Positions 14,927-56,141 of a stretch of DNA of 64,000 nucleotides are shown piece by piece. The stretch comes from Streptosporangium sp. NBC_01755. Lineage in GTDB: Bacteria; Actinomycetota; Actinomycetes; Streptosporangiales; Streptosporangiaceae. The stretch lies in NCBI RefSeq assembly GCF_035917995.1, contig NZ_CP109131.1:2790001-2854000 (forward strand). Reading direction: 5' to 3'. Both the position numbers and the translations under genes were made by a program. The notes beneath the pieces were generated by a model, which was not told the origin of the DNA, did no database searches, and was given only the letters and a program-made list of their open reading frames with translations. Each line of letters starts with the position of its first letter. Position 1 is the stretch's first letter.

Positions 14927-14991
14927 GAAAGCGGTGATGCGCAGCATATGCGCACCTGGAGGCATCCACACACCCGGGTTGGCGGCCTGCC

Positions 14992-15308: not shown

Positions 15309-15374
15309 TGCGTTCTCTCCGATCTCGACGTGAGCGTGACGGTTGTGACCGGCCCGAGCCCGAGGGCGGGTCGC

Positions 15375-16181: not shown

Positions 16182-16381
16182 CGGGGACCGCCTCCTCTCG
16201 CTCGACACCGAGTGGAATTTTAGCCCCCCTACAGCAAGAGGATCCGCAGTCGAACCTCTCGCCGGGGCGGGCCGGATTCCAGCGCCCGGCAGCACGGGCG
16301 GGAATTCGGGTCGACCTCCCCCAAAATGGCGATGATAACCGAATGTAATATTGCGACTACATCCAAAGGAGGCTGTTGACG

Positions 16382-16738: not shown

Positions 16739-16876
16739 GCCGTGGGTGAGTCGCATGCGCCCGCATTACCCTCTCTTGAAGCATTTATGGGGTAATGCTG
16801 ACCCGGAGTCGGCTTCCGGGGATCGCAAAGGCTCCGAAGGGCTACGGTGGACAGCGATGACGGCCAGGAGGAGATC

Positions 16877-17260
16877 ATGCGACAGCTGAGGCGCGGCGCG
16901 CCCTTCGGCTGGCTGCTGACCCTGCTGCTGCCGCTGCTGGTCTCCGGGGGACTGGGCGGGAGCACCTCCGCCCTCGTACGGGACACCGCGGTCGTCCAGG
17001 CCGTCGGCGAGCATCAGCCGCTGTCGCGCCCGCTCCTCGACAGCGTGCAGCGGCATTCCCTCGCCTCCGGCTTCGCCGGCACCGGGACCGGTCTGGGCGG
17101 CGGGGGCGGCCACCCGCTCGCGACCCCGCCCGCCGACCTCCGGCACCTGTTCCTCGCCACCGGCCCGCTCACCCGCCCGGCGGGTGACGAGGACACCCAC
17201 CCGCTCGCGGCCCTGCTCGTCAGGCCGGGGCGCGCACCACCCGCCTCCACAGCCGACTGA
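16877..17260 (+). CDS. Small secreted or membrane-anchored protein of unknown function
   Basis: The 127-residue product begins MRQLRRGAPFGW and then a hydrophobic segment (LLTLLLPLLVSGGLGG) that could be a signal peptide or membrane anchor. The rest is Gly/Pro/Leu-rich with several His residues and no domain I recognise. AGGAGG lies 8 bases before the ATG. It is 231 bases upstream of the SecDF fusion on the same strand. Confidence 0.55.
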   Translation: MRQLRRGAPFGWLLTLLLPLLVSGGLGGSTSALVRDTAVVQAVGEHQPLSRPLLDSVQRHSLASGFAGTGTGLGGGGGHPLATPPADLRHLFLATGPLTRPAGDEDTHPLAALLVRPGRAPPASTAD

Positions 17261-17286
17261 AACACCCCGGAACCGCTCCGGGTCTC

Positions 17287-17422
17287 TTCGCCGTACGCGA
17301 AAACGTCTCCGCCACGAGCGGAAGACGTCTTTCCCAGGAAGACATCTTTCCCAGGAAGACATCTTTCCCATGAGCGGAAAACGCCTTCGCCACAGCCGAA
17401 AGGCGTTTTCGCCGTACGCGAA
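17287..17422. repeat. Nested repeats and hairpin upstream of secDF
   Basis: The 15-mer TTCGCCGTACGCGAA, itself an interrupted palindrome, occurs at 17287-17301 and 17408-17422. Between them are three near-identical 17-bp units of the type GAAGACATCTTTCCCAG (17321-17371). A stem also forms between AAAACGCCTT and AAGGCGTTTT around 17378-17410. The hairpin may end the upstream gene; the rest is unexplained. Confidence 0.7.
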
Positions 17423-17491
17423 GCGTGCCGCCGTACCTGAACGCTCCTTCGGCCTGACCGAGGACAACTCCCCCAGCCTGTGGAGGCTTCC

Positions 17492-19768: not shown

Positions 19769-19819
19769 CCCTCACGCTCTGGCCAGGCGGGCACGGCCGG
19801 TCTGCTCTGGTCTGAGCGG

Positions 19820-19887
19820 CAGGGGCAGGGGCAGGGGCAGGGGCAGGGGCAGGGGCAGGGGCAGGGGCAGGGGCAGGGGCAGGGGCG
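19820..19887. repeat. (GGGGCA)n microsatellite
   Basis: About eleven uninterrupted GGGGCA hexamers lie just after secDF. On the minus strand they read Leu-Pro or Ala-Pro runs that make false open frames. Hexamer runs such as this are prone to slippage. Confidence 0.9.
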
Positions 19888-19912
19888 CGTATCGCGTTCC
19901 GGCCCGGGTCCG

Positions 19913-19952
19913 ATGGGCGGCTCCTCGCGGGATCCCGCGAGGAGCCGCCCAT
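19913..19952. terminator. 40-bp perfect palindrome, probable bidirectional terminator
   Basis: The sequence from 19913 to 19952 equals its own reverse complement, with centre GGGATCCC at about 19929-19936. RNA from either strand could form an 18-20-bp stem. It lies 145 bases after secDF and is followed by ATTTCC on the plus strand. The remaining bases up to 20127 are AT-richer and probably hold the promoter of the copper protein gene. Confidence 0.7.
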
Positions 19953-20127
19953 TTCCGTAGCTTCCCCACTAACCCTACAGAAGATAGGCGCATTTATGCA
20001 TAAAACTATTTCGATGGGCGATTAAAACCGTAAATTCCCGGAAGGCCGAAGCACCCGGCAGGGCACAACCACTGATGCGAGAGCTTCGAACGTTGAAGCG
20101 GAACGGTCACGAACACGGGGAGCAAGT

Positions 20128-20484
20128 ATGAGCCATGCGGTGAAGATGAACCCTCAGGTACAGAAGAGCATCGACATGTGCCTGGAGAGCCACAGCCGTT
20201 GCGAGCAGACCATGACCTACTGCCTCACACAGGGGGGTCGGTACGCCGACATGGCACTGATAGGCCCGCTCATGGACTGTGCCGACATGACCCGCCTCTG
20301 CGCGGACATGATGATGCGCCAGTCACCGATGGCGAAGGACATGGCCACGATGTGCGCGAAGGCGGCGAACAAATGCGCCGACGCGTGCATGTCCATGGAG
20401 AGTGACCCGATGATGAAGGAGTGCGCCGACGCGTGCCGGGCATGGGCCAAGGCGTGCCAGACGATGGCGAACGCGCGAGCCTGA
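20128..20484 (+). CDS. Four-helix-bundle copper-binding protein (Csp/DUF326 type)
   Basis: The 118-residue product is rich in Cys, Met and His spread along helices in the Csp pattern: DMCLESHSRCEQTMTYC, DCADMTRLCADMMM, MCAKAANKCADACM and ECADACRAWAKACQTM. Csp proteins store many Cu(I) ions inside a four-helix bundle. No signal peptide is present, so it is a cytosolic Csp3-like form. GGGGAG lies before the ATG. No CsoR or copper ATPase gene is adjacent. A long stem follows at 20557. Confidence 0.9.
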   Translation: MSHAVKMNPQVQKSIDMCLESHSRCEQTMTYCLTQGGRYADMALIGPLMDCADMTRLCADMMMRQSPMAKDMATMCAKAANKCADACMSMESDPMMKECADACRAWAKACQTMANARA

Positions 20485-20556
20485 GCCGTCGGCCGGTCCC
20501 GAACACCCCTCGCAGAACCACAGGGTCCTCCGAGGGTAGCGACAAAACAAACGAAA

Positions 20557-20587
20557 GGGGCGTCGCCGATCGCATCGGCGGCGCCCC
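20557..20587 (+). terminator. Hairpin terminator after the copper protein gene
   Basis: A 14-bp stem with one mismatch and a CGC loop (GGGGCGTCGCCGAT paired with ATCGGCGGCGCCCC) lies 73 bases after the stop codon. It resembles actinomycete intrinsic terminators without a T-tract. Confidence 0.65.
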
Positions 20588-20606
20588 TGCCCGTGTAGCA
20601 CCCCCG

Positions 20607-20686
20607 AGCAGGCTGCCCGTACAACGTCCTGGGCAGGCTGTCCATGCAGTCCCAAGCAGGCTGCCCGTACAACGCCCTGGGCAGGC
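20607..20686. repeat. About 24-bp tandem repeats, 3.5 copies
   Basis: Units related to GCAGGCTGCCCGTACAACG follow each other with a 24-bp half period. The full 32-base unit at 20607-20638 returns at 20655-20686 with one change. The array fills most of the gap between the copper protein and EF-hand genes. It is too short and gapless to be CRISPR. Confidence 0.75.
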
Positions 20687-20813
20687 ACGACCCTCCCGGC
20701 TCAGCCGACACCTGGAACAGGCGCAATCCCCCGGACTCAGCCGGGAAGGGCGCCCCGAATGCCGCTAGTGTGCTTGCCGTCTGATTTCCCTGCTGCCAAA
20801 GGCGGATGCGATC

Positions 20814-21026
20814 GTGGCGGACGACTACGCGACAACTTTCAAGATCGTCGATGTTGACGGTGACGGCCTCATCTCGGTCTCCGAGCTGACAAGGCTCATG
20901 GAGGTGCTCGGTCAGCCGATCACCCCCGAGGGGGCCGCGGCGGCCGTCGCCGGCATCGACGAGGATGGCGACGGCCTCATCTCCCTGGACGAGTTCGCCG
21001 GCTATCTCGCCCAGACCCGGGGCTGA
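20814..21026 (+). CDS. Two-EF-hand calcium-binding miniprotein
   Basis: The 70-residue protein is essentially one EF-hand pair. The loops are DVDGDGLISVSE (about residues 13-24) and DEDGDGLISLDE (about 49-60), each with all Ca-coordinating positions filled. It resembles the small calmodulin-like Cab proteins of Streptomyces, which buffer or sense calcium. The start is GTG 20814, and there is no signal peptide. A terminator follows at 21039. Confidence 0.88.
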   Translation: MADDYATTFKIVDVDGDGLISVSELTRLMEVLGQPITPEGAAAAVAGIDEDGDGLISLDEFAGYLAQTRG

Positions 21027-43553: not shown

Positions 43554-44492
43554 ATGACGGCCATGAAGAGCCCCCCCATAGCATCCATCACCCCGGACCC
43601 CCCTCCAAAGCGGGAGGCCGCGATCACGGACACAGCCACAGCGGCCTTGAGATCCCGACTCACAAGCGGGGTGGTCGGCCTTGCCGTTGTGGCCTTCCTG
43701 GCCGCGCTCTGGGAGGGCTACAAGGCGCTGGGCCAGGCGACAGGCGATCGACTGCTCGGAATACCATTCCCAGTCGCGACCGACGATCTGTCCATGCCAC
43801 ACGTCGGCACGATCCTAGGCGCGCTGGTGGAACCCGCCCGGCGCGGGAACCCGACCAGCCTGGGCGTGTACCTGCTCGGGGAAGCCTCCGTGACGCTGCG
43901 TGAAGCCGCCTACGGCCTGGTGGCCGGATCGCTCCTCGGGCTGGCGCTCGCCATCGTCTTCCTCCACATCCCGCCGGTCTCGCGTGGCCTCATGCCGTGG
44001 CTGATCGCCTCGCAGACCATTCCGCTGGTCGCCATCGCCCCGATGATCGTCATCTGGGGCGGCAAGGCGGGACTGCCACCGTGGGTCGCGGTCACCGGCA
44101 TCGCGGCGTACCTGGCGTTCTTTCCCGTGACGATCAACGCGTTGCGAGGACTCAAGTCACCGCCGAAGGTGCAGACGGAGTTCATGCGCAGCGTGGGCGC
44201 CGGGAGGCTCCAGTTCCTGTTCTGGCTCCGCCTGCCCGCGGCGCTGCCGTACGTCTTCGCGGGGCTACGACTCGCCGCCACGGCCAGTGTCGTCGGCGCC
44301 ATCGTGGGCGAGTTGTCGGCCGGCACGGGACGAGGAATCGGCCGAGCCATCCTCACCTTCGCCTACTACTACTCGAACGGCCCCGAGAAGCTGTACGCCG
44401 CCGTCCTTGTCGCGGCCGTCGCGGGGATCGTGTTCGTCCAGTTCCTCAGCTGGATCGAGCGATTCGCCCTCCGCAACCGGCACACCCGATGA
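43554..44492 (+). CDS. ABC transporter permease 1 of the island importer
   Basis: The 312-residue membrane protein of the NitT/TauT permease group has a hydrophilic N-terminus, about six helices and the ATPase-docking loop (RSVGAGRLQFLFWLRLPAAL). It shares the fold of the second permease at 45319, so the pore is probably a heterodimer, unlike the single permease of SsuC systems. It is the first gene behind the operator-bearing promoter. Confidence 0.85.
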   Translation: MTAMKSPPIASITPDPPPKREAAITDTATAALRSRLTSGVVGLAVVAFLAALWEGYKALGQATGDRLLGIPFPVATDDLSMPHVGTILGALVEPARRGNPTSLGVYLLGEASVTLREAAYGLVAGSLLGLALAIVFLHIPPVSRGLMPWLIASQTIPLVAIAPMIVIWGGKAGLPPWVAVTGIAAYLAFFPVTINALRGLKSPPKVQTEFMRSVGAGRLQFLFWLRLPAALPYVFAGLRLAATASVVGAIVGELSAGTGRGIGRAILTFAYYYSNGPEKLYAAVLVAAVAGIVFVQFLSWIERFALRNRHTR

Positions 44493-44527
44493 CCGCCATC
44501 TCTCTTCCGATCCCTGGAGAGCCCACG

Positions 44528-45322
44528 ATGCCTGAATCCGCAATCATCAGTGTCAGCGGCGTCACGAAGCAGTTCAACAGCGGGACAGACCGTTCTGTAA
44601 CGGCGCTGACGGACATTGACCTGTCCATCGCCGAAGGCGAGTTCGTGTCACTGCTGGGTCCGAGCGGCTGCGGGAAGAGCACGCTCCTGCGGATCTTGGC
44701 GGACCTCACCCAACCCACCAGCGGTTCCGTGAGTTTGAACGGCAAAACACCCGACACCGCACGGCGAGACCGTGACTACGGGATGGTCTTCCAGCAGGCC
44801 GGCCTGTTCGACTGGCGAAACGTCCAGCGCAACGTGGAGTTGCCGCTTCAGGTCGCCGGCGTGGCCAAGCGGACTCGGCGGGCCAAGGCCACGTCCATGC
44901 TCGAACTCGTCCGCCTGTCCGAGTTCGCTCACCACTTCCCGTGGCAGCTTTCCGGCGGCATGCAGCAGCGAGTGGCGATCGCCCGGGCACTGTCCGCGGA
45001 TCCGAAGATCCTTTTCATGGACGAACCACTTGGCGCACTTGACGAGATGAACCGGGAACGCCTTCAGGGGGAGCTCCTCCGGATCTGGTCCGACACGAGG
45101 ACGACCGTCGTCTTCGTGACGCACAGCATCTCAGAGGCCGTGTTCCTGTCGTCGCGGATCATGGTGATGTCCCCTCGTCCTGGGCGGATCGCCGCCAGCA
45201 TCGACGTCGATCTGCCGTACCCGCGTTCCGCCGCCACACGCACGACACCCGAGTACTTCAAAAAGATCACTGAGGTCAGGTCCGCTCTGCATGGCATGTC
45301 AGTCGCCCAGGACGCGCCATGA
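44528..45322 (+). CDS. ABC transporter ATPase of the island importer
   Basis: The 264-residue ATPase has Walker A LLGPSGCGKSTLLR, Q-loop MVFQQAGLFDW, signature LSGGMQQRVAIARAL, Walker B ILFMDEPLGALDE and H-loop VTHSISEAV. The ATG at 44528 has GGAGAG upstream; an earlier ATG at 44489 overlaps the permease stop (ATGA) and is an alternative. Its stop overlaps the next permease start. Confidence 0.9.
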   Translation: MPESAIISVSGVTKQFNSGTDRSVTALTDIDLSIAEGEFVSLLGPSGCGKSTLLRILADLTQPTSGSVSLNGKTPDTARRDRDYGMVFQQAGLFDWRNVQRNVELPLQVAGVAKRTRRAKATSMLELVRLSEFAHHFPWQLSGGMQQRVAIARALSADPKILFMDEPLGALDEMNRERLQGELLRIWSDTRTTVVFVTHSISEAVFLSSRIMVMSPRPGRIAASIDVDLPYPRSAATRTTPEYFKKITEVRSALHGMSVAQDAP

Positions 45323-46146
45323 GCGTCCGTACGGGAAGCAGGCGTTCGATGCCGATCACCGCTGGGCGGGCCGGGGCGACCATCAGGCGAGGACTGCCGG
45401 TCCTGGTCACCGCGGTCGTCATCCTGGGCGCCTGGCAGCTTGTGGTGCGGCTGTTCCAGGTCCCGTCGTTCATCCTGCCCGCGCCGAGTGAAATCGCCTC
45501 AGCGCTGTCATCGCAGCTCCCGACGATCCTCTCGGCCTCGAATATCACCGTTAAGGCGGTCCTACTCGGCCTCGTTCTCGGGTCCGTCGCCGGCGTCCTC
45601 GTCGCGCTGGTGGTCAGCCGCTTTCACAAGGTGTCGGGCCCGGTTCTGGCGATGGCCGTGATCGTCAACTGCGCTCCCATCGTCGCGCTGGCGCCGATCT
45701 TCAACAACTGGTTCGGCGTGACCAATATCGCCTCCAAGGCCGGCGTCGCATCGGTCATGGTGTTCTTTCCCGTCCTGGTCAACACGGCCAGGGGTCTGCT
45801 CCAGGTCTCACCGCTGCACCTGGAGCTCATGGAGTCGCTGGCGGCACAACCGCGGCAGATCTCCCTGATGTTGCGACTCCCCAACGCGTTGCCCTATCTC
45901 TTCAACGCGCTCAAGCTCGGGTCCACCCTGGCCGTCATCGGCGTCATCGTGACCGAGTACTTCGGGGGGCCAAGCAATGCGCTCGGGGTGTACATCGCCT
46001 ATCAGGCGGCCTTGCCGCGCTTCGCCGAAGCATGGGCAGGGATCTTCGTAGCCAGCCTGCTCGGGCTCGCGATGTTCGGACTGATGTCGCTGCTCGAACG
46101 TCTTTTGATGCCCTGGCACGAGTCGATTCACAGCGACGAGGCGTGA
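45319..46146 (+). CDS. ABC transporter permease 2 of the island importer
   Basis: The 275-residue permease overlaps the ATPase gene by ATGA. It has about six helices and the docking motif MESLAAQPRQISLMLRLPNAL, seen as PRQISLMLRLPNALPYLF. It should pair with permease 1. Confidence 0.88.
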   Translation: MSVRTGSRRSMPITAGRAGATIRRGLPVLVTAVVILGAWQLVVRLFQVPSFILPAPSEIASALSSQLPTILSASNITVKAVLLGLVLGSVAGVLVALVVSRFHKVSGPVLAMAVIVNCAPIVALAPIFNNWFGVTNIASKAGVASVMVFFPVLVNTARGLLQVSPLHLELMESLAAQPRQISLMLRLPNALPYLFNALKLGSTLAVIGVIVTEYFGGPSNALGVYIAYQAALPRFAEAWAGIFVASLLGLAMFGLMSLLERLLMPWHESIHSDEA

Positions 46147-46191
46147 TCTCCCGTCGTTCCCCCCACGATTTACCTTCTTGAAGGAGTCACA

Positions 46192-47361
46192 ATGCCCCGC
46201 TCCCTTCGGCGCCTCGCGCGCCCACGAGTCAATCGCCGCGTCGTCGGCGCCTTGGTGGTCGCCGCCACGCTCTCCCTGTCCGCCTGTGGCATGTCGGAGG
46301 AGGCCCCGGTGTCCGGATCCGGCGCGGAGAACACCGCGTCGTGCCAGACGCGAACCCCGGTCAGGCTCGTCCTCCAGTGGGTGGCGCAGTCGCAGTTCGC
46401 CGGCTACTACGCCGCCAAGGACAAGGGCTACTACGCCGACGAGTGTCTCGATGTGACCATCCAGGAGGGTGGCGTCAACATCGTGCCGCAGCAGGTGTTG
46501 TCGGCGGGCAACGCGGAGTTCGCGGTCAGCCACGTCACCAAGACGATGGTCACCCGGGAGCAGGGAGCCGACCTCGTCAACATCGGCCAGGTGTTCCAGC
46601 GCGGTGCTTACCTGCAGGTCGCCTGGGCGGACTCGGGCATCAAGCAGCTCGCGGACCTCAAGGGCAAGAAGGTGGGCAGCTGGGGGTTCGGCAACGAGCT
46701 GGTGTTGTTCGCGGCGATGAGGGGCTCCGGCGTCGACCCGGACAAGGACGTCACCGTCGTGCAGCAGCCGTTCGACATGTCGCTGCTGCTGAAGCGGGAG
46801 GTCGACGCGGCCCAGGCCAAGATCTACAACGAGTACGCCCAGCTTCTGGAGACCATCAACCCCAAGACCGGTGCGCTGTACAAGCCGGAGGACTTCTCGG
46901 CCATCAGCCTTCAGGACGCGGGATACACGAGCCTTGAGGACGGTATCTACGCGCGTGGCGACTGGCTGGCCCAGGATGCCAACAAGGACATCGCCGTGAA
47001 GTTCCTCAAGGCGACGTACAAGGGCTGGGGCTTCTGCCGGGACGACCTGGCCGGCTGTGTCGAGGTCGTCCTCAACAACGGCAGCGCGCTCGGCAAGGGC
47101 CACCAGACGTGGATGCTGAACGAGGTCAACAAGCTCGTGTGGCCTTCACCTGCCGGTATCGGGACCATCGACCAGAAGGCATGGGACCAGACCATCAAGA
47201 TCGCAGTCGACGCCAAGGTGCTCAAGGCCGACCCCGGTGAGGGCGCCTTCCGCGGGGACCTCACCGAGAAGGCGGACCAGGAACTGAAGGCGGAGGGATT
47301 CGACGTCACCGGCGATGGCTACAAGCCGGAGACCGTAGAGCTAACCGCCGGAGGCAAGTAG
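46192..47361 (+). CDS. NMT1/THI5-like substrate-binding lipoprotein of the island importer
   Basis: The 389-residue protein has a signal peptide with lipobox LSAC and a mature NMT1/THI5-like fold: VRLVLQWVAQSQFAGYYAAK, GYYADECLDVTIQEGG, VGSWGFGNELVLFA and DDLAGCVEVVLNNGS. Members of this group bind thiamine-pyrimidine precursors, riboflavin-related or other N-heterocyclic ligands. That fits the ring-opening enzymes encoded downstream. Two extra Cys pairs may form disulfides. Confidence 0.87.
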   Translation: MPRSLRRLARPRVNRRVVGALVVAATLSLSACGMSEEAPVSGSGAENTASCQTRTPVRLVLQWVAQSQFAGYYAAKDKGYYADECLDVTIQEGGVNIVPQQVLSAGNAEFAVSHVTKTMVTREQGADLVNIGQVFQRGAYLQVAWADSGIKQLADLKGKKVGSWGFGNELVLFAAMRGSGVDPDKDVTVVQQPFDMSLLLKREVDAAQAKIYNEYAQLLETINPKTGALYKPEDFSAISLQDAGYTSLEDGIYARGDWLAQDANKDIAVKFLKATYKGWGFCRDDLAGCVEVVLNNGSALGKGHQTWMLNEVNKLVWPSPAGIGTIDQKAWDQTIKIAVDAKVLKADPGEGAFRGDLTEKADQELKAEGFDVTGDGYKPETVELTAGGK

Positions 47362-47371
47362 CAGACGATAT

Positions 47372-47408
47372 CCGTGCGTTACGCGGCATAAGTCCGCGTA
47401 AGGCACGG
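47372..47408. promoter_or_regulatory. 15-bp inverted repeat between importer and iclR
   Basis: CCGTGCGTTACGCGG (47372-47386) and CCGCGTAAGGCACGG (47394-47408) pair with one mismatch across a 7-base loop. It lies 11 bases after the importer stop and about 70 before the iclR start. It may be a terminator or an autoregulatory operator. Confidence 0.55.
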
Positions 47409-47477
47409 ACAACAGCCAGCGAGCCTGCCACGATGATGGCCGCAACCGTCGATCACATCACCTCAACGGAGGAGACA

Positions 47478-48269
47478 ATGGCACCAAGTGAAGCGGGACT
47501 TGTCCGCCGGACTATCTGGCTGCTTCGTGCCGTGGCCGCCCACCCGGAGGGCGTCGGGCTCAGCGAGGTCGCCAGGGAGGCCGGCATCCCCAAGGCGACG
47601 TGCTACCGCGTGCTCACCGTCCTCGAACGGGAGAGCTGGCTGACACTTGATCCGGACACTCGGCGTTATCGGGTCTCACTCGGCCTTCTCTCGATCGTCG
47701 GGGGACTGCTGGACAGCGACGGCGCCTACGGTCACATGCGCGGCGTCCTGCGGCAGCTCGCCGAGGAGACCAAGGAGACCTCCGGGTTCGACGTGCTCCT
47801 GGCGCCCAACGTCATGGTCGTCGCACAGGTTTCGGGGCCCTCGCTGATCGGGCAGACGCTCAAGCCCGTCCCGCGGACCCAGCCTGTGTGGGCGACCTCG
47901 ACCGGCAAGGTTCTGCTCGCCGCCCTCGATCCGGAGGCGGTGCGGACGGATTTCGCAGCCGAGTTCTCGGAGAAGGCGCCCGAGGAGCTGGGAGGTCTGG
48001 ACGCGTTCATCGAGTCGCTGGGCTCGGTGCGCCGCAACGGCTACGCCCTCGCCTACGACGAGCTCGAAGTCGGCGCGGCATCCGTGGCCGCGCCAGTACG
48101 GGTCCGGGACTCGACGCCCTACGCGGTGTGGATCGGCGGCCCCACCTATCGCATCACGCGTGACCGTATCGATTCGGTGGCGGAGTCAGTGATCAAGGCC
48201 GCTCGAGGGCTGAGTGAACTGCTGAGCGTCACAGACATCATCCTGCCGAGTGCCCTGACCGGGCGCTAG
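47478..48269 (+). CDS. IclR-family regulator of the catabolic island
   Basis: The 263-residue protein has the winged HTH (VGLSEVAREAGIPKATCYRV) and a full IclR effector domain (SGFDVLLAPNVMVVAQVSG, PVWATSTGKVLLAAL, NGYALAYDELEVGAASVAAP). Start 47478 has GGAGGAG just upstream. Its position between importer and enzyme genes makes it the probable regulator of both. The 15-bp palindrome TGAACCAATGGTTCA at 50730 has the symmetry expected of IclR operators (inference). Confidence 0.85.
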   Translation: MAPSEAGLVRRTIWLLRAVAAHPEGVGLSEVAREAGIPKATCYRVLTVLERESWLTLDPDTRRYRVSLGLLSIVGGLLDSDGAYGHMRGVLRQLAEETKETSGFDVLLAPNVMVVAQVSGPSLIGQTLKPVPRTQPVWATSTGKVLLAALDPEAVRTDFAAEFSEKAPEELGGLDAFIESLGSVRRNGYALAYDELEVGAASVAAPVRVRDSTPYAVWIGGPTYRITRDRIDSVAESVIKAARGLSELLSVTDIILPSALTGR

Positions 48270-48315
48270 GCCACCAGCTGATCGGCGCCAAGGGGCGCGA
48301 CAAAGGAGTTCGCCC

Positions 48316-49800
48316 ATGACATCTCTTACCGACACGATCGCCGCGGCCGAAAGCATTGCCGACAGTGTGCCGAAAGGCGTGTTCGTCGGCGGCGAGTGGC
48401 GTGGGTCCGACTCCGGCGCCGTGCTTGCCGTCGACGACCCCGGCACCGGCCGGACGATCGCCGAGGTCGCCGACGCCGGGGTCGAGGACGGTCTGGCGGC
48501 TCTCTCGGCCGCTGCCGACGCGCAGGCGTCCTGGGCCGCCACGCCACCTCGTGAACGAGGGGAGATCCTGCGACGGGCGTTCGAGCAGATCCTCGTCCGC
48601 GGGGACGATCTCGCGCGGCTCATGACGCTGGAGATGGGTAAGCCGCTGGCCGAATCGCAAGCCGAGGTCGCGTACGCGGCCGAGTTCTTCCGGTGGTTCT
48701 CGGAGGAGGCCGTCCGCATCGACGGCGGCTACCTGGTCGCCCCCGGCGGCGGGTCGCGCGTGGTCGTGACCCGGCAGCCGGTCGGCCCCAGCCTGCTGGT
48801 GACCCCGTGGAACTTTCCCATGGCGATGGGCACTCGCAAGATCGGGCCCGCGCTCGCGGCCGGTTGCACGGTGGTGGTCAAGCCGGCACGACAGACACCG
48901 CTGTCGATGCTCGCGCTGGTGGGGATCCTCCAGGATGCCGGCCTGCCGTCCGGGGTGGTCAACGTCTTCACCACATCGAGGTCGGGAGAGGTGACGTCGG
49001 CGCTGCTGCGCGATTCGCGACTGCGCAAGCTTTCGTTCACCGGTTCAACGGAGGTCGGCCGCACTCTGCTCGCGCAGTGCTCGGACAAGGTGCTGCGCAC
49101 GTCAATGGAGCTCGGTGGGAACGCGCCGTTCATCGTCTTCGACGACGCCGACCTCGATCTGGCGGTCGAGGGCGCGGTTCAGGCCAAGATGCGCAACATC
49201 GGTGAGGCATGCACGGCCGCGAACAGGTTCTACGTCCAGAGGGGAGTCGCCCGGGACTTCAGCGAGGCGCTCGCCAAACGGCTGGGCTCGTTGACCGTGG
49301 GCCATGGTCTCGACCCGTCGACGCAGGTGGGCCCCCTGATCGACCGGGGCGCCCTCGCCGGCGTGGCCGGGCTGGTCGACGAGGCACGAGCCGCCGGAGC
49401 CGAAGTGCTGACCGGCGGTGAGGCGCTGGCCGGCGACGGCAACTTCTACCGGCCGACCGTCCTCGCCGGGGTGCCCCACGGCGTCCGGACCGTTCGCGAG
49501 GAGATCTTCGGCCCGGTCGCGCCGATCATCACCTTCGACGAGGAGGACGACGCGGTCGCCATGGCCAACGACACGGAGTACGGCCTCGCGGCGTACGTCT
49601 TCACGGAACGCCTCGACCGGGGGCTGCGCGTCTGCGAGCGCCTTGAGAGCGGCATGGTCGGCCTCAACCAGGGCGTGATCTCCAACCCGGCGGCTCCCTT
49701 CGGCGGGGTCAAGCAATCCGGTCTGGGGCGTGAGGGCGGCCGGGTCGGGATAGACGAGTACCTCGAGGTCAAGTACATGTCCATCAGGGCGCCGTGGTGA
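48316..49800 (+). CDS. NAD(P)-dependent aldehyde dehydrogenase (semialdehyde dehydrogenase type)
   Basis: The 494-residue ALDH has VTPWNFPMAMGTRKIGPALA, the catalytic Glu265 in MELGGNAPF and Cys299 in GEACTAANRF. The sequence pattern is closest to succinate-semialdehyde dehydrogenases. In this island it could oxidise malonate or methylmalonate semialdehyde, or succinate semialdehyde, produced by the aminotransferase. Its stop overlaps the next gene. Confidence 0.88.
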   Translation: MTSLTDTIAAAESIADSVPKGVFVGGEWRGSDSGAVLAVDDPGTGRTIAEVADAGVEDGLAALSAAADAQASWAATPPRERGEILRRAFEQILVRGDDLARLMTLEMGKPLAESQAEVAYAAEFFRWFSEEAVRIDGGYLVAPGGGSRVVVTRQPVGPSLLVTPWNFPMAMGTRKIGPALAAGCTVVVKPARQTPLSMLALVGILQDAGLPSGVVNVFTTSRSGEVTSALLRDSRLRKLSFTGSTEVGRTLLAQCSDKVLRTSMELGGNAPFIVFDDADLDLAVEGAVQAKMRNIGEACTAANRFYVQRGVARDFSEALAKRLGSLTVGHGLDPSTQVGPLIDRGALAGVAGLVDEARAAGAEVLTGGEALAGDGNFYRPTVLAGVPHGVRTVREEIFGPVAPIITFDEEDDAVAMANDTEYGLAAYVFTERLDRGLRVCERLESGMVGLNQGVISNPAAPFGGVKQSGLGREGGRVGIDEYLEVKYMSIRAPW

Positions 49801-50660
49801 CCGAGTTCATCCTCGCGGGCGTGCAGTTGCGCCCGCGCTTCGGTGACGTCGCCGGCAACATCGAGCGATCGTCGGAGTGGATCACCAAAGCAGCCGAGGC
49901 CGGTGCGCGGCTCGTCGTCCTTCCCGAGGCGTCCTCCGCCGGGTACGTCTTCGCGGACCGTGCCGAGGCCCTTCGGTACGCCGAGGACGTACCCGGCGGA
50001 CCGGCCTGCTCAGCCTGGGCCGCACTCGCCCGGAGGCACCATCTCTGGATCGTCGCCGGTGTCACCGAACGGGAAGGCGGCCGGCCGTACAACTCGGCCG
50101 TGCTGATAGGCCCGGACGGGCACGTCGGGACGTTCCGCAAGGCCCATCTCTGGAACGACGAGAAGGTCGTCTACGGCCGCAACGAGGCGGGGTTTCCGGT
50201 TTTCGACACGCCGCTGGGACGGATCGGGGTGGGGATCTGCTACGACGCGTGGTTCCCCGAGACCTTCCGCAGCGCGGCTCTCCAAGGCGCCGACCTGATC
50301 GTTCTTCCCTCGAACTGGGTCCCCGTGCCGGGCCAGCCGGCCGATGTGCCGGCCATGGCCACCCTCATGTGCATGACCGGTGCGCACAGCAACCAGTCCT
50401 ATGTCGCGGGCGTGAGCCGGGTGGGTGTCGAGCGTGGCCAGGAGTTCGTCGGGAGATCGGTGATCGTCGGCCCTGACGGCTGGATCCTCGCGGGTCCCGC
50501 GAGCAACGACGGCGAAGAGATGTTGCTCGCCGAGATCGACCTCATCGGGTCGCGAGAAGCCCGGCACGGCAACCCGTTCAACCAGCCGCTGGCGGACCGC
50601 CGCCCTGATCTCTACGTGACCCGCGACGCGCGGTGTGCCCAGGACGGTCGACGGGACTGA
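49797..50660 (+). CDS. Nitrilase-superfamily amidase 1
   Basis: The 287-residue carbon-nitrogen hydrolase has the catalytic triad Glu44 (VVLPEAS), Lys115 (TFRKAHL) and Cys148 (GICYDAWFPE). Superfamily members include beta-ureidopropionase, N-carbamoyl amino acid amidohydrolase and omega-amidase. The start GTG 49797 overlaps the ALDH stop (GTGA). It is distinct from the second amidase at 55323, so two amide bonds may be cut in the pathway. Confidence 0.88.
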   Translation: MTEFILAGVQLRPRFGDVAGNIERSSEWITKAAEAGARLVVLPEASSAGYVFADRAEALRYAEDVPGGPACSAWAALARRHHLWIVAGVTEREGGRPYNSAVLIGPDGHVGTFRKAHLWNDEKVVYGRNEAGFPVFDTPLGRIGVGICYDAWFPETFRSAALQGADLIVLPSNWVPVPGQPADVPAMATLMCMTGAHSNQSYVAGVSRVGVERGQEFVGRSVIVGPDGWILAGPASNDGEEMLLAEIDLIGSREARHGNPFNQPLADRRPDLYVTRDARCAQDGRRD

Positions 50661-50699
50661 TCCCGCCACCGCGGGATTGCTTTCCATCCTCGAAGTCCC

Positions 50700-50744
50700 T
50701 TGACACAATCCCCGCCCGTCAGCAAAATTTGAACCAATGGTTCA
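50700..50744 (+). promoter_or_regulatory. Strong promoter with IclR-like operator inside the island
   Basis: TTGACA (50700-50705) is followed after 17 bases by CAAAAT (50723-50728). The perfect palindrome TGAACCA-A-TGGTTCA lies at 50730-50744, over the expected transcription start. A further TGAACCATCCG follows at 50750. The shared TGAACCAT core with 43456-43490 indicates one regulator for both promoters. Confidence 0.7.
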
Positions 50745-50770
50745 CCAGATGAACCATCCGAGGAGGCAAA

Positions 50771-51334
50771 GTGAGCATCCAGGTCCGCAAGATCATCAAG
50801 CATCTCGAAGAGACCATGCTTGAGAACGGGCGCCCGGTCGAACGCCCGCATCGGGTCGCATTCGTCGGTGCGGTGATCGCCAACCCATACCCGAGCGAGT
50901 ACGTCGAGGACCTGGTGACGCTCGCTGACGAGCTGGGCGAGGAGATCGGGCAACTTGTCGGCCCGGCCTGCGTGGACCTGCTCGGTGACGAGGTGGAGGC
51001 GTTCGGCAAGGCGGCGCTCGTCGGCATCGACGGTGAGGTCGAGCACGGCTCGGCCCTGATCCACAACCTCCGGTTCGGCAACGTCTTCCGCAAGGCGGCC
51101 GGCGGCACCGAACTTCTGCCCGCCGCCGAGAAGGTCGGTCTCCCAGGCAGCCCCATCGACATCCCGCTCAAGCACAAGCTCGACTCGAAGACCCGATCGC
51201 ACCATCAGACGGTGACCTTCCAGGTGTCCGACGTCCCTCGCCCCCGCGAGATCCTCGTGATCTGCGCGGCCGCCAACGCCGGTCGTCCCCTGGCCCGCCT
51301 GGCCGTGTTCGGCGCCGAGACGAAGACCCAGTGA
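50771..51334 (+). CDS. PF06684 'amino acid synthesis' family protein
   Basis: The 187-residue protein begins MSIQVRKIIKHLEETMLENG and continues AFVGAVIANPYPSEYVEDLV, GPACVDLLGDEVEAFGKAALVG and GSALIHNLRFGNVFR. These features match the AA_synth (DUF1185) family, named without firm biochemical proof. Its enzymatic role is not established to my knowledge. In this island a ring amidase or isomerase role is possible. It is the first gene after the internal promoter. Confidence 0.75.
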   Translation: MSIQVRKIIKHLEETMLENGRPVERPHRVAFVGAVIANPYPSEYVEDLVTLADELGEEIGQLVGPACVDLLGDEVEAFGKAALVGIDGEVEHGSALIHNLRFGNVFRKAAGGTELLPAAEKVGLPGSPIDIPLKHKLDSKTRSHHQTVTFQVSDVPRPREILVICAAANAGRPLARLAVFGAETKTQ

Positions 51335-51362
51335 CACCTACGGGATGAGAGAAGGCGATCCG

Positions 51363-52718
51363 ATGACCGTCATCGACGCGCAGACGTGGACCGGCCGGCG
51401 TGTGAAGGAGGCCGACAAGGAGTACGTCATTCACTCCTGGTCGGTCCAGGGCGCGCTCGACCCCATTCCGGTTGCCGGAGGCTCGGGCTCCTGGTTCTGG
51501 GACTACGAAGGCCGCAAGTACCTCGACTTCCAATCGCAACTGGTCAATCTCAACCTCGGACACCAGCACCCGAGGCTGGTCGAGGCCATTCGCAGCCAGG
51601 CTGAACAGCTGTGCTACATCGGCCCCGGTTTCGCCGAGCGGTCCCGGGCGGAGCTGGCCGAGATGCTGGCCGGGCTGACGCCCGGTGACCTGAAGATGAG
51701 CTTCTTCACCACCGGTGGTGCGGCAGCCAACGAGAACGCCGTGCGCCTCGCCCGGCACGTGACCGGCCGCCAGAAGATCGTGGCTCGCTACCGCTCCTAT
51801 CACGGGGCGACCGCGGGGGCCATCGCGCTGACCGGGGACCCGCGTCGCTGGGCGGCGGAGCCGGGCATGACCGGCGTGGTGCGGATGCTCGATCCGTACA
51901 CGTACCGCTGTCCCGCGGGCCACCCCGACCCGTGCCCTGTCTGCTCGGGGGGACCGCACCTGGAGGAGATCCTCCAGTACGAGAACCCCAACACCGTGGC
52001 CGCCGTGATCGTCGAGCCGGTGACCGGAACGAACGGACTTCTGTACCCGCCTGACGGATACCTCCGCTCCCTTCGGGAGGTCTGCGACCGGTACGGCATC
52101 CTGCTCATCTTCGACGAGGTCATGTCGGGATTCGGCCGGACGGGCGAATGGTTCGCCTGCGACCACTGGGCCGTCGCCCCGGACATCCTCACCACCGCGA
52201 AGGGGCTCAACTCCGGTTACATCCCGCTGGGTGCGATGACCGTGTCAGAGAAGATCTCCGACTGGTTGCGTGACAACATGTTCTGGGGCGGTCTCACCTA
52301 CGCGGGACACCCGCTCGCCTGTGCCTCCGGTGTCGCCTCTCTGCGCATCATGCAGGACGAGGGTGTCGTCGAGAACGCCCGGCTCATGGGCCGGCGGCTT
52401 GGCGAAGGGCTGGCGTCCCTGGCGGACAGGCATCCGAGCATCGGTGACATTCGTGGCCGTGGCCTCTTCTACGGAGTCGAGCTCGTCAAGGACCGGGCGA
52501 CGCGCGAACCGCTCGTGCCGTTCAACGCCAAGGGCCCCGCGGCCGCACCGGTGAGTCGCATGCTCAAGGCGGCGATGGAGCGTGGCCTGTACCTCACGGC
52601 GAACTTCAACGTGCTGCGCCTGACCCCGCCCCTGATCATCCGCGAGTCGGAGATCGACCTGGCTCTCGACGTGCTGGACGAGGTGCTCACGCTGGCCGAC
52701 GAGCACTACACCGGCTGA
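51363..52718 (+). CDS. Class III PLP-dependent omega-aminotransferase
   Basis: The 451-residue aminotransferase has YLDFQSQLVNLNLGHQHPR, FTTGGAAANENAVRLAR, RSYHGATAGA, LIFDEVMSGFGRTG and PLP Lys280 in TTAKGLNSGY. The subgroup includes beta-alanine/taurine:pyruvate transaminases. In the island it would convert beta-alanine or 3-aminoisobutyrate-like products to the semialdehyde for the ALDH. GAAGG lies before ATG 51363. A CPAGHPDPCPVCSGG stretch near residues 182-196 suggests an inserted Cys-rich loop. Confidence 0.88.
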   Translation: MTVIDAQTWTGRRVKEADKEYVIHSWSVQGALDPIPVAGGSGSWFWDYEGRKYLDFQSQLVNLNLGHQHPRLVEAIRSQAEQLCYIGPGFAERSRAELAEMLAGLTPGDLKMSFFTTGGAAANENAVRLARHVTGRQKIVARYRSYHGATAGAIALTGDPRRWAAEPGMTGVVRMLDPYTYRCPAGHPDPCPVCSGGPHLEEILQYENPNTVAAVIVEPVTGTNGLLYPPDGYLRSLREVCDRYGILLIFDEVMSGFGRTGEWFACDHWAVAPDILTTAKGLNSGYIPLGAMTVSEKISDWLRDNMFWGGLTYAGHPLACASGVASLRIMQDEGVVENARLMGRRLGEGLASLADRHPSIGDIRGRGLFYGVELVKDRATREPLVPFNAKGPAAAPVSRMLKAAMERGLYLTANFNVLRLTPPLIIRESEIDLALDVLDEVLTLADEHYTG

Positions 52719-52767
52719 TCAGACTGACCACCTAGCTGGTGTGACCGGCCGTTCAAGAAGGAGAACG

Positions 52768-54183
52768 ATGGGATCGACGCTCATCAAAGGCGGTACCGTC
52801 GTCAACGCCGACGCCGCCGTCCGGGCCGATGTTCTGGTGCGCGACGGTCTCGTTGTCGCGCTCGGGTTCGGCGACGGCTGGTCGGCCGACGAGGTCATCG
52901 ACGCGACCGGGAAACTCATCCTCCCCGGCGGGATCGATGTGCACACGCATCTGGAATACCCGATCGACGGCTTCACGACCCGAACGGCGGACGACTTCCA
53001 CAGCGGCACGATCGCGGCCGCACACGGCGGGACGACGACGGTCATCGATTTCGTGAAGAAGGAGCCCGACAAGTCCCTCCTCGACTCATATATGCGTCGC
53101 CGGGACGTGGCCGCTGAGAAGGCCGTCGTCGACTTCGGGTTGCACGCCATAGTGCCGCCACGTGACCAGCAGGAGAACGTGCTGGACGACTTGCGCCGCC
53201 TGGCAGGAGAGGGCGCGTCGAGCTGGAAGTTCTTCATGGCCTACCCCGGCACGCAGATGGTCGACGACGGCCAACTGCTCGAAGGCTTCGAACTCGCGGT
53301 CGAGTACGGCGTGCTGCCGATGGTGCATGCCGAGAACGGCCACATGGTGGCCCGAGAGACCCGCCTGCTGATCGAGAGCGGACGTACCGCGGAGAATTAC
53401 CACGCCACGGCGCACGGCCACGACTCCGAAGCCGAAGCGGTGCATCGGGCGATCGTCCTGGCGGACTCCGTCGGCAGTCCCCTCTACGTGGTGCATGTCT
53501 CCAGCGCGACGGCCGCGGCGGAGATCGGCCAGGCGAGGGGGCGGGGCTCACTGGTGTGGGGGGAGACGTGCCCGCAGTATCTCGCGGTCGCGTACGAGGA
53601 CTACGCCGAGCTTGGCGAGAAAGCCGCCGCTTACCTCTGCTCGCCGCCGATCCGGGAGCGCGGCAACCAGGAGGGCCTGTGGCAGGCGCTCACCGTGGGG
53701 GCGCTGTCGACGGTGGCCACCGACCACGCGGGTTTCTGCCTGGAGCAACCCGACGATCTCCCCCCGCAGAAACTGCGAAGCCCCGGGTACTTCCCGAAGG
53801 TTCCCAACGGGGTTCCGGGAGTCGAGGACCGGCTCATGGTTCTCTGGGAGACAGGAGTCAAGACGGGCCGGATTGACATGTGCAGGTTCGTCGACCTTGT
53901 GGCGACGCGTCCGGCCAAGTTGTTCGGACTCTTCCCACACAAGGGTCTGGTAGCCGTGGGTGCGGACGCCGACCTCCTCGTGTGGGATCCCGCGGCGGAC
54001 CACGTCATCACCACGGCGGGTTCGCACATGCGCACGGACTACAACCTCTATGACGGCATGCGGGTGACCGGACGACCGGTCCACGTGTTCTCCCGCGGCC
54101 ATCACCTCGTCAACGACGGAGCCTTCGACGGGAAGCCCGGTCGCGGATCCTTCCTTACCCGGGGCAAGCCCCACCTCTTCTGA
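52768..54183 (+). CDS. Dihydropyrimidinase/hydantoinase
   Basis: The 471-residue cyclic amidohydrolase carries the full binuclear metal site: His59/His61 in DVHTHLE, carboxylated Lys154 in ASSWKFFMAY, His187 in MVHAENG, His243 in VVHVSS and Asp319 in ATDHAGF. The family opens dihydrouracil, dihydrothymine, hydantoins or cyclic imides to N-carbamoyl or half-amide products. Start 52768 has AAGGAGAACG upstream. With the amidases and aminotransferase it outlines a reductive-pyrimidine-like route. Confidence 0.92.
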   Translation: MGSTLIKGGTVVNADAAVRADVLVRDGLVVALGFGDGWSADEVIDATGKLILPGGIDVHTHLEYPIDGFTTRTADDFHSGTIAAAHGGTTTVIDFVKKEPDKSLLDSYMRRRDVAAEKAVVDFGLHAIVPPRDQQENVLDDLRRLAGEGASSWKFFMAYPGTQMVDDGQLLEGFELAVEYGVLPMVHAENGHMVARETRLLIESGRTAENYHATAHGHDSEAEAVHRAIVLADSVGSPLYVVHVSSATAAAEIGQARGRGSLVWGETCPQYLAVAYEDYAELGEKAAAYLCSPPIRERGNQEGLWQALTVGALSTVATDHAGFCLEQPDDLPPQKLRSPGYFPKVPNGVPGVEDRLMVLWETGVKTGRIDMCRFVDLVATRPAKLFGLFPHKGLVAVGADADLLVWDPAADHVITTAGSHMRTDYNLYDGMRVTGRPVHVFSRGHHLVNDGAFDGKPGRGSFLTRGKPHLF

Positions 54184-54210
54184 CCCCCGACTGATCGGAG
54201 TTCTCCGGCT

Positions 54211-55218
54211 ATGAAACTTCCCCTCGGCATCCACGTTGGCGAGAGGCTGAGCCTTGAGCAGACCTACTGGCAGGCAGAGTTCGCGGATCGGAACGGATTC
54301 GAGTCGGTCTGGGTGGCCGAGGGTCGCTTGGCCAGGGACGGAATCGTGCCCGCGGCCATCATCGCGAGCAAGACCTCCAACCTGAAGATCGGCACGGGCG
54401 TCGTCAACAACAAGAGCCGCAACGCGGCACTGATGGCGGTGACCTTCAAGACCCTGGACGAGGTGGCTCCGGGTCGCGCGATCCTCGGCATCGGCGCCTG
54501 GTGGGAGCCGCTCGCCACGAAGGTCGGTCAGCCGCTCGTGAAGCCGATCGCCTCGATGCGCGAGTACATCACCGTCTGCCAAGCGTTCTTCCGCAATGAA
54601 CTCGTCTCCTTCGAAGGGGAGTTCGTGCAGATGCGCGACGTGCGATTCGACAGCATGTACCGCGAGAACAAGCCGGTCGACATCCCGATCTACATAGGGG
54701 CGGTCGGGCCGAAGATGCTTGAGCTCGCCGGAGAGATCAGCGATGGCGTCCACATGGACTTCCTCCTGCCGCCGTCCTATCTGACCGGCGCCAAAGAGGC
54801 GATCGGCCGGGGCGTTGCCAAGCGCACCGACGGTCGCACTGGGATCGACCTGACCCAGATCGTGGCATGCAGCGTCAACGACGACGACCCGCAGGAGGCC
54901 ATCGACGCGTGCAAGGCGTTCCTGACCCTCTACCTCATGCAGCAGCCGCACATCGCCGAGCACTGTGGCGTGGATCGCGAACTGGTCGACCGGCTGCAGG
55001 AGGTGGCGGGATGGCCCGCGACTCCCGAGGACATCAAGCGTGCGATGCCTCTCGTTCCGAACTCGCTGGTGCAGAACGTCACCGCGTGTGGGTCCACATC
55101 ACAGGCCTTCGACAAGCTCATGGCCTACCACGAGGCCGGTGTCAGATGCCCGATCATCTCCACGCTCGGTGACAAGGAGCAGACGCTCACCCGCCTTGCC
55201 CTGGCCGGGAAGGACTGA
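54211..55218 (+). CDS. Luciferase-like (LLM) flavin or F420-dependent oxidoreductase
   Basis: The 335-residue TIM-barrel enzyme resembles the F420-dependent methylene-H4MPT-reductase-like branch of the LLM family: ADRNGFESVWVAEGRLARDG, LKIGTGVVNNKSRNAALMA, TLDEVAPGRAILGIGAWW and IPIYIGAVGPKMLELAGEI. No dihydropyrimidine dehydrogenase is seen in the island, so this enzyme may reduce the substrate ring with F420H2, or oxygenate it with FMN as RutA does. It lies between the dihydropyrimidinase and amidase 2. Confidence 0.85.
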   Translation: MKLPLGIHVGERLSLEQTYWQAEFADRNGFESVWVAEGRLARDGIVPAAIIASKTSNLKIGTGVVNNKSRNAALMAVTFKTLDEVAPGRAILGIGAWWEPLATKVGQPLVKPIASMREYITVCQAFFRNELVSFEGEFVQMRDVRFDSMYRENKPVDIPIYIGAVGPKMLELAGEISDGVHMDFLLPPSYLTGAKEAIGRGVAKRTDGRTGIDLTQIVACSVNDDDPQEAIDACKAFLTLYLMQQPHIAEHCGVDRELVDRLQEVAGWPATPEDIKRAMPLVPNSLVQNVTACGSTSQAFDKLMAYHEAGVRCPIISTLGDKEQTLTRLALAGKD

Positions 55219-55322
55219 ACGATGGATCACCACTTTCCCCGAACGACCATCGCCATCGTGCGTCCGCGGTCTGGCGTCGCGCTGACCGGAATGCCGCAGC
55301 CTACTCCCGAAAAGGTGATCGC

Positions 55323-56141
55323 ATGAAGCTCGCCGCAGTTCAGCTCCGTGCCACGGACGACCGGACCGAAACCATCGGCAGGGCCGGCGATCTCGTGGAT
55401 GCCGCCGCCGGCCAGGGCGCCGGCATCGTTCTTCTTCCTGAGCTGTTCGCTGTCCCGTTCGTGCAGCCCGACCCGGATCCGGATTACTTCGAGCTGGCGG
55501 AGCGTCTCGACGGCCCGTCGAACACGATGGCGGCTGACCGATCCCGTCGGCACGGGATCACGGTGGTCTCTTCGGTATTCGAAGCCGGTGACGTGCCCGG
55601 CGTGTATTTCAACACCGCCTGCACGTACGTCGCGGGCGAGCTGAAGTCGGTCTATCGAAAGTCCCACCTGCCGTTCTCCAATGGATTCCCGGAGAAGTTC
55701 TATTTCCGGCCGGGGGGCACCGAGCCTGAAGTCGTGCACACGGGTGAGACCGGGGTTGGCACGATCATCTGTTACGAGAGGCACTTCCCGGAGTTGAGCA
55801 GGATCGTCGCTCTTCGGGGCGGTTCGGTGCTATGCGTGCCGGTCGCGTCCGCGAGCGCGCCCATGCGTGAGGTCTTCCAGCTCGAACTGAAGGCACACGC
55901 CGTGTTCAACGGGCTCTTCGTGATCTGTGCTAACCGGGTGGGCAGGGAAGGCGTCAAGGACTACTTCGGGATGAGCGCCGTCTACGGCCCCAACGGCGAC
56001 GTCCTCGCTCAGGCGAATGACAACACCGACGACGTCGCGGTTGCCGAAGTCGACCTCAACCTGATCGCGACCTCGCGCCGGCGCCGCCCGTTCCTCCGTG
56101 ACCGGCGCCCGGAACTGTACGACCGGTTGACGGCGATGTGA
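55323..56141 (+). CDS. Nitrilase-superfamily amidase 2 (beta-ureidopropionase-like)
   Basis: The 272-residue hydrolase has Glu40 (LLPELFA), Lys113 (YRKSHLPF) and Cys150 (IICYERHFPE). The ICYERHFPE sequence is close to N-carbamoyl-D-amino-acid hydrolase and beta-ureidopropionase branches, which release CO2 and ammonia from carbamoyl products of dihydropyrimidinase. It is the last gene of the island, followed by repeat B. Confidence 0.9.
   Translation: MKLAAVQLRATDDRTETIGRAGDLVDAAAGQGAGIVLLPELFAVPFVQPDPDPDYFELAERLDGPSNTMAADRSRRHGITVVSSVFEAGDVPGVYFNTACTYVAGELKSVYRKSHLPFSNGFPEKFYFRPGGTEPEVVHTGETGVGTIICYERHFPELSRIVALRGGSVLCVPVASASAPMREVFQLELKAHAVFNGLFVICANRVGREGVKDYFGMSAVYGPNGDVLAQANDNTDDVAVAEVDLNLIATSRRRRPFLRDRRPELYDRLTAM

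Follow-up and report, generated by a model that had tools for sequence, protein, structure and literature searches.

A conserved gene island of Streptosporangium probably couples an F420H2-dependent LLM enzyme to dihydropyrimidinase in reductive pyrimidine breakdown

We analysed a stretch of 64,000 nucleotides from Streptosporangium sp. NBC_01755 (contig NZ_CP109131.1, positions 2,790,001 to 2,854,000), hereafter called the window; the window genome (G000) comprises 8.15 Mb on a single contig. Twelve genes on the plus strand, at positions 43554-56141 of the window and with intergenic gaps of -7 to 110 bp, follow each other in the order permease, ATPase, permease, NMT1-type binding protein, IclR regulator, aldehyde dehydrogenase (ALDH), nitrilase-fold amidase NitA, PF06684 protein, aminotransferase, dihydropyrimidinase, luciferase-like LLM enzyme (LLM1) and a second nitrilase-fold amidase, NitB (Table 1). 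We consider it likely that these genes form a conserved catabolic island in which LLM1 reduces a pyrimidine ring (a cyclic ureide of the uracil or thymine type) with F420H2, in place of PydA/PreA. This reading draws on gene content and order, their conservation, co-occurrence, the lack of PreA matches over cut-off, and F420 genes in the islands and the host genome, from which we infer the reaction steps.

A scan of genome contigs gave 124 confirmed relatives of LLM1, of which 80 were examined. Among these, 34 loci (L004-L036 and L061) with an LLM protein at least 62% identical to LLM1 were treated as homologous islands. By identity thresholds of our own setting, and on contigs of which some are short, the aminotransferase and NitB genes were each retained in 33 of the 34 islands, dihydropyrimidinase, PF06684 and IclR in 29, the importer genes for the NMT1-type protein, ATPase and second permease in 22, NitA in 20 and the window-type ALDH in 7. 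The grouping of these genes is not a matter of chance, since the neighbours of the LLM gene recur in 34 homologous loci. An initial annotation of this DNA had pointed to conserved synteny as a check, and the gene set is indeed conserved to the extent given by these counts. Five islands lack a dihydropyrimidinase orthologue: L014, whose contig is short, and four loci of Nocardioides. In three of the latter, a dihydropyrimidinase-like gene (31% identity) lies nearby on the opposite strand; in the fourth, one is visible where the locus ends. These Nocardioides loci (L017:8122-9858, also L018, L019 and L036) carry a thiamine pyrophosphate (TPP)-dependent enzyme between aminotransferase and LLM, at the usual position of dihydropyrimidinase.

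In BLAST comparisons, the island was not shared by the remaining 46 of the 80 relatives (40-48% identity), and a dihydropyrimidinase-like neighbour was found in one of them (L051). As distant relatives show it in this locus only, the linkage of LLM1 to dihydropyrimidinase looks derived. LLM proteins 97-99% identical to LLM1 are carried by Streptosporangium, and a search of plasmids gave no match to LLM1 at E 1e-80.

Comparison with solved structures placed LLM1 closest to methylene-tetrahydromethanopterin reductase (Mer; Z 36.8), at 28% identity. F420 enzymes filled the first 15 of the 50 best rows by Z and likewise the first 20 by Foldseek. Structures of RutA, an LLM-fold enzyme that acts on uracil, scored lower than these F420 enzymes (Z 25.8). 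RutA cleaves the ring with FMN and O2, and no dihydropyrimidinase is involved. LLM1 scored below the cut-offs of both the Mer equivalog model (F420_mer, TIGR03555; 153 bits, cut-off 348.7) and TIGR03842 (70.4 bits, cut-off 295.45). From its sequence and structure model, LLM1 is predicted to belong to the F420 hydride-transferase type and to use F420. The F420-dependent LLM enzyme proposed in the initial annotation agrees with this assignment and with the F420 genes inside homologous islands.

Of the 34 islands, 17 carry a gene for NADPH:F420 reductase (Fno), exactly between LLM and NitB in 16 of them; the L016 copy reads in two pieces. All seven Fno copies that were scanned (six from islands, one from L056) exceeded the NCBIfam cut-off. 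FbiC is present in six Streptomyces islands (in L008 with 1462 bits for the CofGH model); in addition, L021 shows a fragment of it at the locus edge, and L034 has a match. CofC was found in 11 islands (of three copies scanned, two fell slightly under the cut-off and one slightly over), CofE together with CofD in both Leucobacter islands, and two copies of CofG in five Streptomyces island genomes. The window genome encodes F420 genes outside the island, each over its cut-off (CofG 493, CofD 391 and Fno 242 bits). At L056:9920-12739, in a metagenome-assembled genome of Proteobacteria, genes for Fno and a DAO-family oxidoreductase come straight after a mid-clade LLM gene, which makes this a further F420-LLM pair.

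We compared these results with a class sample of 393 Actinomycetes genomes, the window genome included, using E. coli and Deinobacterium as positive controls for the PreA search. A third of the sample (130 of 393) carries dihydropyrimidinase over cut-off (TIGR02033), whereas PreA (NF006183) exceeded its cut-off in none of the 393 genomes. Likewise, PreA was over cut-off in none of 33 island genomes (best 145 of 335 bits; L014 left out), and the model gave no match at E 1e-60 in the window genome. Both PF01180 (dihydroorotate dehydrogenase-family) matches in the window genome proved to be PyrD; a canonical pydA elsewhere, which the initial annotation had named as evidence against its reading, was thus not found there. 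We know of no enzyme for the first step of reductive pyrimidine breakdown in dihydropyrimidinase-bearing Actinomycetes.

A second LLM protein, LLM2, accompanies dihydropyrimidinase across the class. It matches TIGR03842 (F420_CPS_4043) with 569-577 bits; the NCBIfam description of this family names no substrate, and Mer is again the nearest solved structure. LLM2 lay within the 4.4-kb stretches around 27 of the 30 best class dihydropyrimidinases. It occurs in 123 of the 393 genomes: 121 have both LLM2 and dihydropyrimidinase, 9 dihydropyrimidinase alone, 2 LLM2 alone and 261 neither (Fisher P 1.5e-87, uncorrected for kinship). The two genes are less than 5 kb apart in 119 of the 121 genomes and less than 500 bp apart in 91. 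An LLM1-type enzyme is found in two of the 393 genomes, both among the nine with dihydropyrimidinase and no LLM2 (P 5e-4). The nine further include G314, which ends in a partial LLM2 (L108), G027, G058, G276 and G388, where dihydropyrimidinase reaches only 399-415 bits, and G009, also without LLM2. Another of the nine, G140 (L119:7959-17348), has a different hydantoinase cluster, in which a dihydropyrimidinase-family gene lies among further amidohydrolases, with two NMT1 proteins and, upstream, an M20 peptidase.

The LLM2 loci resemble the island in that a Mer-like LLM gene lies near dihydropyrimidinase, amidase and aminotransferase genes, in many cases with an NMT1-type importer and with no PreA. 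In the f31 genomes the module order (L137, L148) is amidase, dihydropyrimidinase, LLM2, importer with NMT1 protein, aminotransferase and methylmalonate-semialdehyde dehydrogenase (MMSDH). The f31 aminotransferase is 45-48% identical to that of the window, homologues of the window's NMT1 protein occur in LLM2 modules too, and a Streptomyces locus (L118) adds an NCS1-type permease (PF02133). Several LLM2 modules include MMSDH, whereas LLM1 islands have no MMSDH of their own. None of the LLM2 modules read showed PF06684; L028, which holds both kinds, has a 39% identical homologue some kb off. Both kinds are also found in L061, where LLM2, MMSDH (701 bits, cut-off 449), dihydropyrimidinase, aminotransferase and amidase lie on the minus strand (14742-20818) beside the LLM1 island; in L028, LLM2 and a partial dehydrogenase are visible. 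L028 and L061 are Acidimicrobiia loci.

The loci differ in the LLM protein itself. In a tree of 26 proteins, LLM1 and LLM2 formed separate clades, each fully supported, with about 23-27% identity between them, and the neighbours of LLM1 were relatives mostly without linkage to dihydropyrimidinase. The pairing of LLM with dihydropyrimidinase therefore seems to have arisen twice. L024:9146-16597 contains a further dihydropyrimidinase/amidase/NMT1 set, together with an M81 metallopeptidase and an LLM protein that is 47% identical to LLM1 and branches as its sister.

In the pathway that we propose, the NMT1-type ABC transporter would bring the base into the cell, Fno would make F420H2 from NADPH, and LLM1 would transfer a hydride from F420H2 to C6 of the ring. 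Dihydropyrimidinase would then open the reduced ring, NitB would remove the carbamoyl group, and the aminotransferase would convert the resulting beta-amino acid into a semialdehyde. The window ALDH is predicted to oxidize the aldehyde remaining after transamination. Together, these lower enzymes would turn the ring into ammonia, CO2 and a usable acid.

The individual enzymes fit these roles to different degrees. The aminotransferase scored 579 bits with NF004718 (cut-off 472), and its nearest solved structure is taurine:2-oxoglutarate aminotransferase (6jix, 372 bits). This likeness, together with the TPP enzyme of the four Nocardioides islands, raised a taurine route, which was set aside: the one TPP enzyme scanned scored 178 bits versus 676 for sulfoacetaldehyde acetyltransferase. 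NitB scored 184 bits with TIGR03381 (cut-off 410) and was under the cut-off of all ten NCBIfam models listed. The ALDH reached 568 bits with TIGR01780 (cut-off 646), that is, it resembles succinate-semialdehyde dehydrogenase (SSADH) below the threshold for that enzyme; CoA-acylating MMSDH (TIGR01722, cut-off 448.5) was not among its 25 best of 44 models, the 25th of which scored 272 bits.

PF06684 has a single match in the whole window genome, at the island, and the closest solved relatives of this protein are 2qtp and 3byq. The accessible part of a PF06684 structure paper proposes a role in amino-acid metabolism from gene neighbours (PMC2954203), and its homologue TgnF stimulates the SSADH step in trigonelline breakdown, according to the text available of PMC7913881. 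Given this effect ascribed to TgnF, and given that LLM1 islands, that of the window included, have no MMSDH of their own such as the CoA-acylating dehydrogenase of LLM2 modules, our guess is that the PF06684 protein may act on a beta-aldehydo acid, as a helper or a decarboxylase. The handling of an additional ring or amide, which the initial annotation had assigned to PF06684 and the extra amidase, gained no support.

The island genes named in the initial annotation were all present, each well above its Pfam cut-off, and the list was accurate as far as it went; it left out the ABC transporter ATPase. Alignment with solved hydantoinases bore out the full metal site described for dihydropyrimidinase, with intact motifs (by motif, HTH 68-70, K163, H196, H252 and D328), and the Glu, Lys and Cys motifs of the described triads are whole in NitA and NitB. 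A second TIGR02033 protein (408 bits) is encoded elsewhere in the window genome (C1:5800870-5802210, L120), beside an allophanate-hydrolase C-terminal domain and with an Opp-type permease some kb away.

Table 1. Genes of the island, with positions in the window.
Feature	Position	Strand	Model match
ABC importer permease 1 (BPD_transp_1)	43554..44492	+	PF00528 70.9 bits
ABC importer ATPase	44486..45322	+	PF00005 118.9 bits
ABC importer permease 2 (BPD_transp_1)	45319..46146	+	PF00528 62.2 bits
NMT1/THI5-type substrate-binding lipoprotein	46192..47361	+	PF09084 132.6 bits
IclR-family regulator	47433..48269	+	PF01614 + PF09339
Aldehyde dehydrogenase, succinate-semialdehyde-dehydrogenase-like	48316..49800	+	PF00171 (Aldedh) 529 bits
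NitA, nitrilase-fold amidase (CN_hydrolase)	49794..50660	+	PF00795 188 bits
PF06684 protein (TgnF/HcdD family)	50771..51334	+	PF06684 184 bits
Class III aminotransferase, predicted beta-amino-acid transaminase	51345..52718	+	PF00202 (Aminotran_3) 324 bits
Dihydropyrimidinase	52741..54183	+	TIGR02033 510 bits, cut-off 393
LLM1, Mer-like luciferase-like hydride transferase, predicted F420H2-dependent pyrimidine reductase	54211..55218	+	Bac_luciferase 197 bits
NitB, nitrilase-fold amidase, predicted N-carbamoyl-beta-amino-acid amidohydrolase	55323..56141	+	PF00795 170 bits

Several observations weigh against our reading. The function of LLM1 is a prediction from genes. Since PreA is missing from the whole class sample, its absence from the island genomes adds no extra evidence, and we do not use it as a separate argument for replacement. 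None of the twelve genes of the window island is an F420 gene, and 17 of the 34 islands were not scored with one (including L034, where the FbiC match is below the coverage limit). Five of 33 island genomes lack CofG, as do 14 of the 46 LLM2 genomes tested, which are a chosen part of the 123; of these 19 CofG-less genomes 16 have CofD, and 3, among them island genome L033, lack CofD as well. The name of TIGR03842 refers to a Colwellia protein, and we know of no F420 production in Colwellia. Moreover, F420 capacity is common anyway: in random samples of 80 genomes each, CofD was over cut-off in 55 of those lacking both LLM2 and dihydropyrimidinase and in 76 of those with LLM2 (P 2e-5, uncorrected for kinship). 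Hence, F420 capacity is common, yet it goes with LLM2.

Finally, the LLM2 modules beside the LLM1 islands of L028 and L061 imply that one of these systems may have a substrate other than uracil. The island could accordingly act on another cyclic ureide or pyrimidine-related N-heterocycle, such as a substituted pyrimidine or a hydantoin, still by F420H2-dependent ring reduction, with uracil and thymine left to LLM2 modules. We judge this possible but rather unlikely. It accounts for an LLM2 module in L061 with its own dihydropyrimidinase, amidase and MMSDH, for the PF06684 and often NitA genes that LLM1 islands retain, and for the two separate clades. However, the remaining gene content of the two kinds is nearly alike (NMT1 importer, dihydropyrimidinase, nitrilase-fold amidase, class III aminotransferase), NCS1 nucleobase symporters accompany both, and the window genome shows no LLM2 at E 1e-80, which leaves LLM1 as its only candidate found. 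The initial annotation had suggested that the substrate may be an unusual N-heterocycle rather than uracil. The NCS1 symporters in 3 of the 34 islands (the copy scanned, from L021, exceeds the TIGR00800 cut-off) and the likeness to LLM2 modules, some with MMSDH, point instead to ordinary pyrimidines, while the two loci with both modules keep a case for different substrates.

It is improbable that LLM1 works oxidatively, as an F420-reducing dehydrogenase of a pathway alcohol, hemiaminal or semialdehyde that leaves the ring untouched. Among solved F420-LLM enzymes there are several dehydrogenases (Fgd, Adf), 5 of the 34 islands have an alcohol dehydrogenase closest to the NDMA-dependent family (L021: 425 of 440 bits) with another ALDH, and Fno leaves the direction of the reaction unfixed because it can work in reverse, too, making NADPH from F420H2. 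However, neither PreA nor any other ring reductase was found, and the close spacing of LLM2 and dihydropyrimidinase argues for a role in the ring step. The monooxygenases PyrA (pyridine) and TgnB (trigonelline), like RutA, open a heterocycle oxidatively. A RutA-like, FMN-dependent monooxygenation by LLM1, which the initial annotation had offered as its alternative and which PF06684 (in view of TgnF) and the SSADH-like ALDH would fit in a trigonelline-like route, is less probable still, since none of the twelve genes was recognized as a flavin reductase, sequence and structure model favour Mer over RutA, Fno, FbiC, CofC, CofE and CofD occur in homologous islands, and dihydropyrimidinase requires a reduced ring.

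The genomes without FO synthase show a further arrangement. CofD lies 2.6-10.4 kb from dihydropyrimidinase in nine CofG-less f31 genomes and about 5 kb from it in both Leucobacter; in the other five of the 16 CofG-less genomes with CofD, it is on a different contig. A three-gene ABC importer (ATPase, FecCD permease and Peripla_BP_2 protein; domains Pfam-scanned in three loci) adjoins CofD in nine of these eleven loci (L025, L026, L136-L138 and L140-L143). Examples with CofD, some with CofC or CofE, beside the importer are L136:4202-9729, L141:10096-16588 and L025:2479-6297 and 14872-16662. In two f31 loci from CofG-bearing genomes (L149, L150), the 19 kb of sequence covered showed no such importer. 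The importer is a candidate system for uptake of FO or a relative. We tentatively suggest, as a joint reading to which we give somewhat less than even weight, that some lineages without FO synthase keep CofD, CofC, CofE and the FecCD-type importer at the locus and would use scavenged FO for pyrimidine breakdown. Two findings tell against a neat unit for FO salvage: the importer was not found beside CofD in L139 and L144, and L148, from a genome lacking CofG and CofD, has the importer without CofD. If right, the arrangement would tie FO salvage to a single pathway.

The island is likely a Pyd-like route with a different first enzyme. Reductive pyrimidine degradation comprises PydA, PydB, PydC, PydD and MSDH, as given in the available text of PMC7332683. 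The island shares with it a dihydropyrimidinase, a nitrilase-fold candidate ureidopropionase, a class III aminotransferase and an aldehyde dehydrogenase; it differs in that PydA/PreA was not found and a Mer-like LLM enzyme is present instead, in the SSADH-like rather than CoA-acylating ALDH, and in the additional PF06684 and NitA. The trigonelline (Tgn) system combines PF06684 (TgnF) with an SSADH step; the island has a PF06684 protein and an ALDH that resembles SSADH below its cut-off, and no flavin reductase was seen in it.

Comparable ring reductases have been described or predicted. In uric-acid clusters of Chloroflexota, an F420-LLM "yanthine reductase" is predicted in place of a PydA-like reductase, and the pathway includes HyuA, which opens the reduced ring (PMC12507026, 2025); this is a purine route with other partners, the reductase is a prediction there too, and the portion of the paper available does not mention linkage to F420 biosynthesis. 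NpsU and SSGG-03002 of the napsamycin and mureidomycin clusters, which we liken to LLM1 by description and not by sequence, are putative F420/FMN oxidoreductases for which genetics show reduction of the uracil C5=C6 bond; they belong to Streptomyces antibiotic biosynthesis with a nucleoside-peptide substrate, and an in-vitro assay failed (accessible text of PMC10714638). Fht (LLHT family) of picrate degradation transfers a hydride from F420H2 onto an electron-poor aromatic ring in actinomycetes (PMC8498797, in part). Its substrate is nitroaromatic, and no dihydropyrimidinase pathway is involved. Fno reportedly lies in the same cluster in picrate degradation.

Literature searches in the open-licence PMC turned up no paper that describes this actinobacterial arrangement. 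The 2021 F420 review (PMC8498797), in the text available, gives no match for uracil or salvage terms and states that little is known of what F420 does in the primary metabolism of streptomycetes or in other Actinobacteria. If our reading is true, an F420H2-dependent LLM enzyme would fill the first-step gap in the 130 dihydropyrimidinase-bearing genomes of the class sample, a small one-cofactor protein would replace an iron-sulfur flavoprotein, and F420 would gain a role in the ordinary catabolism of Actinomycetes.

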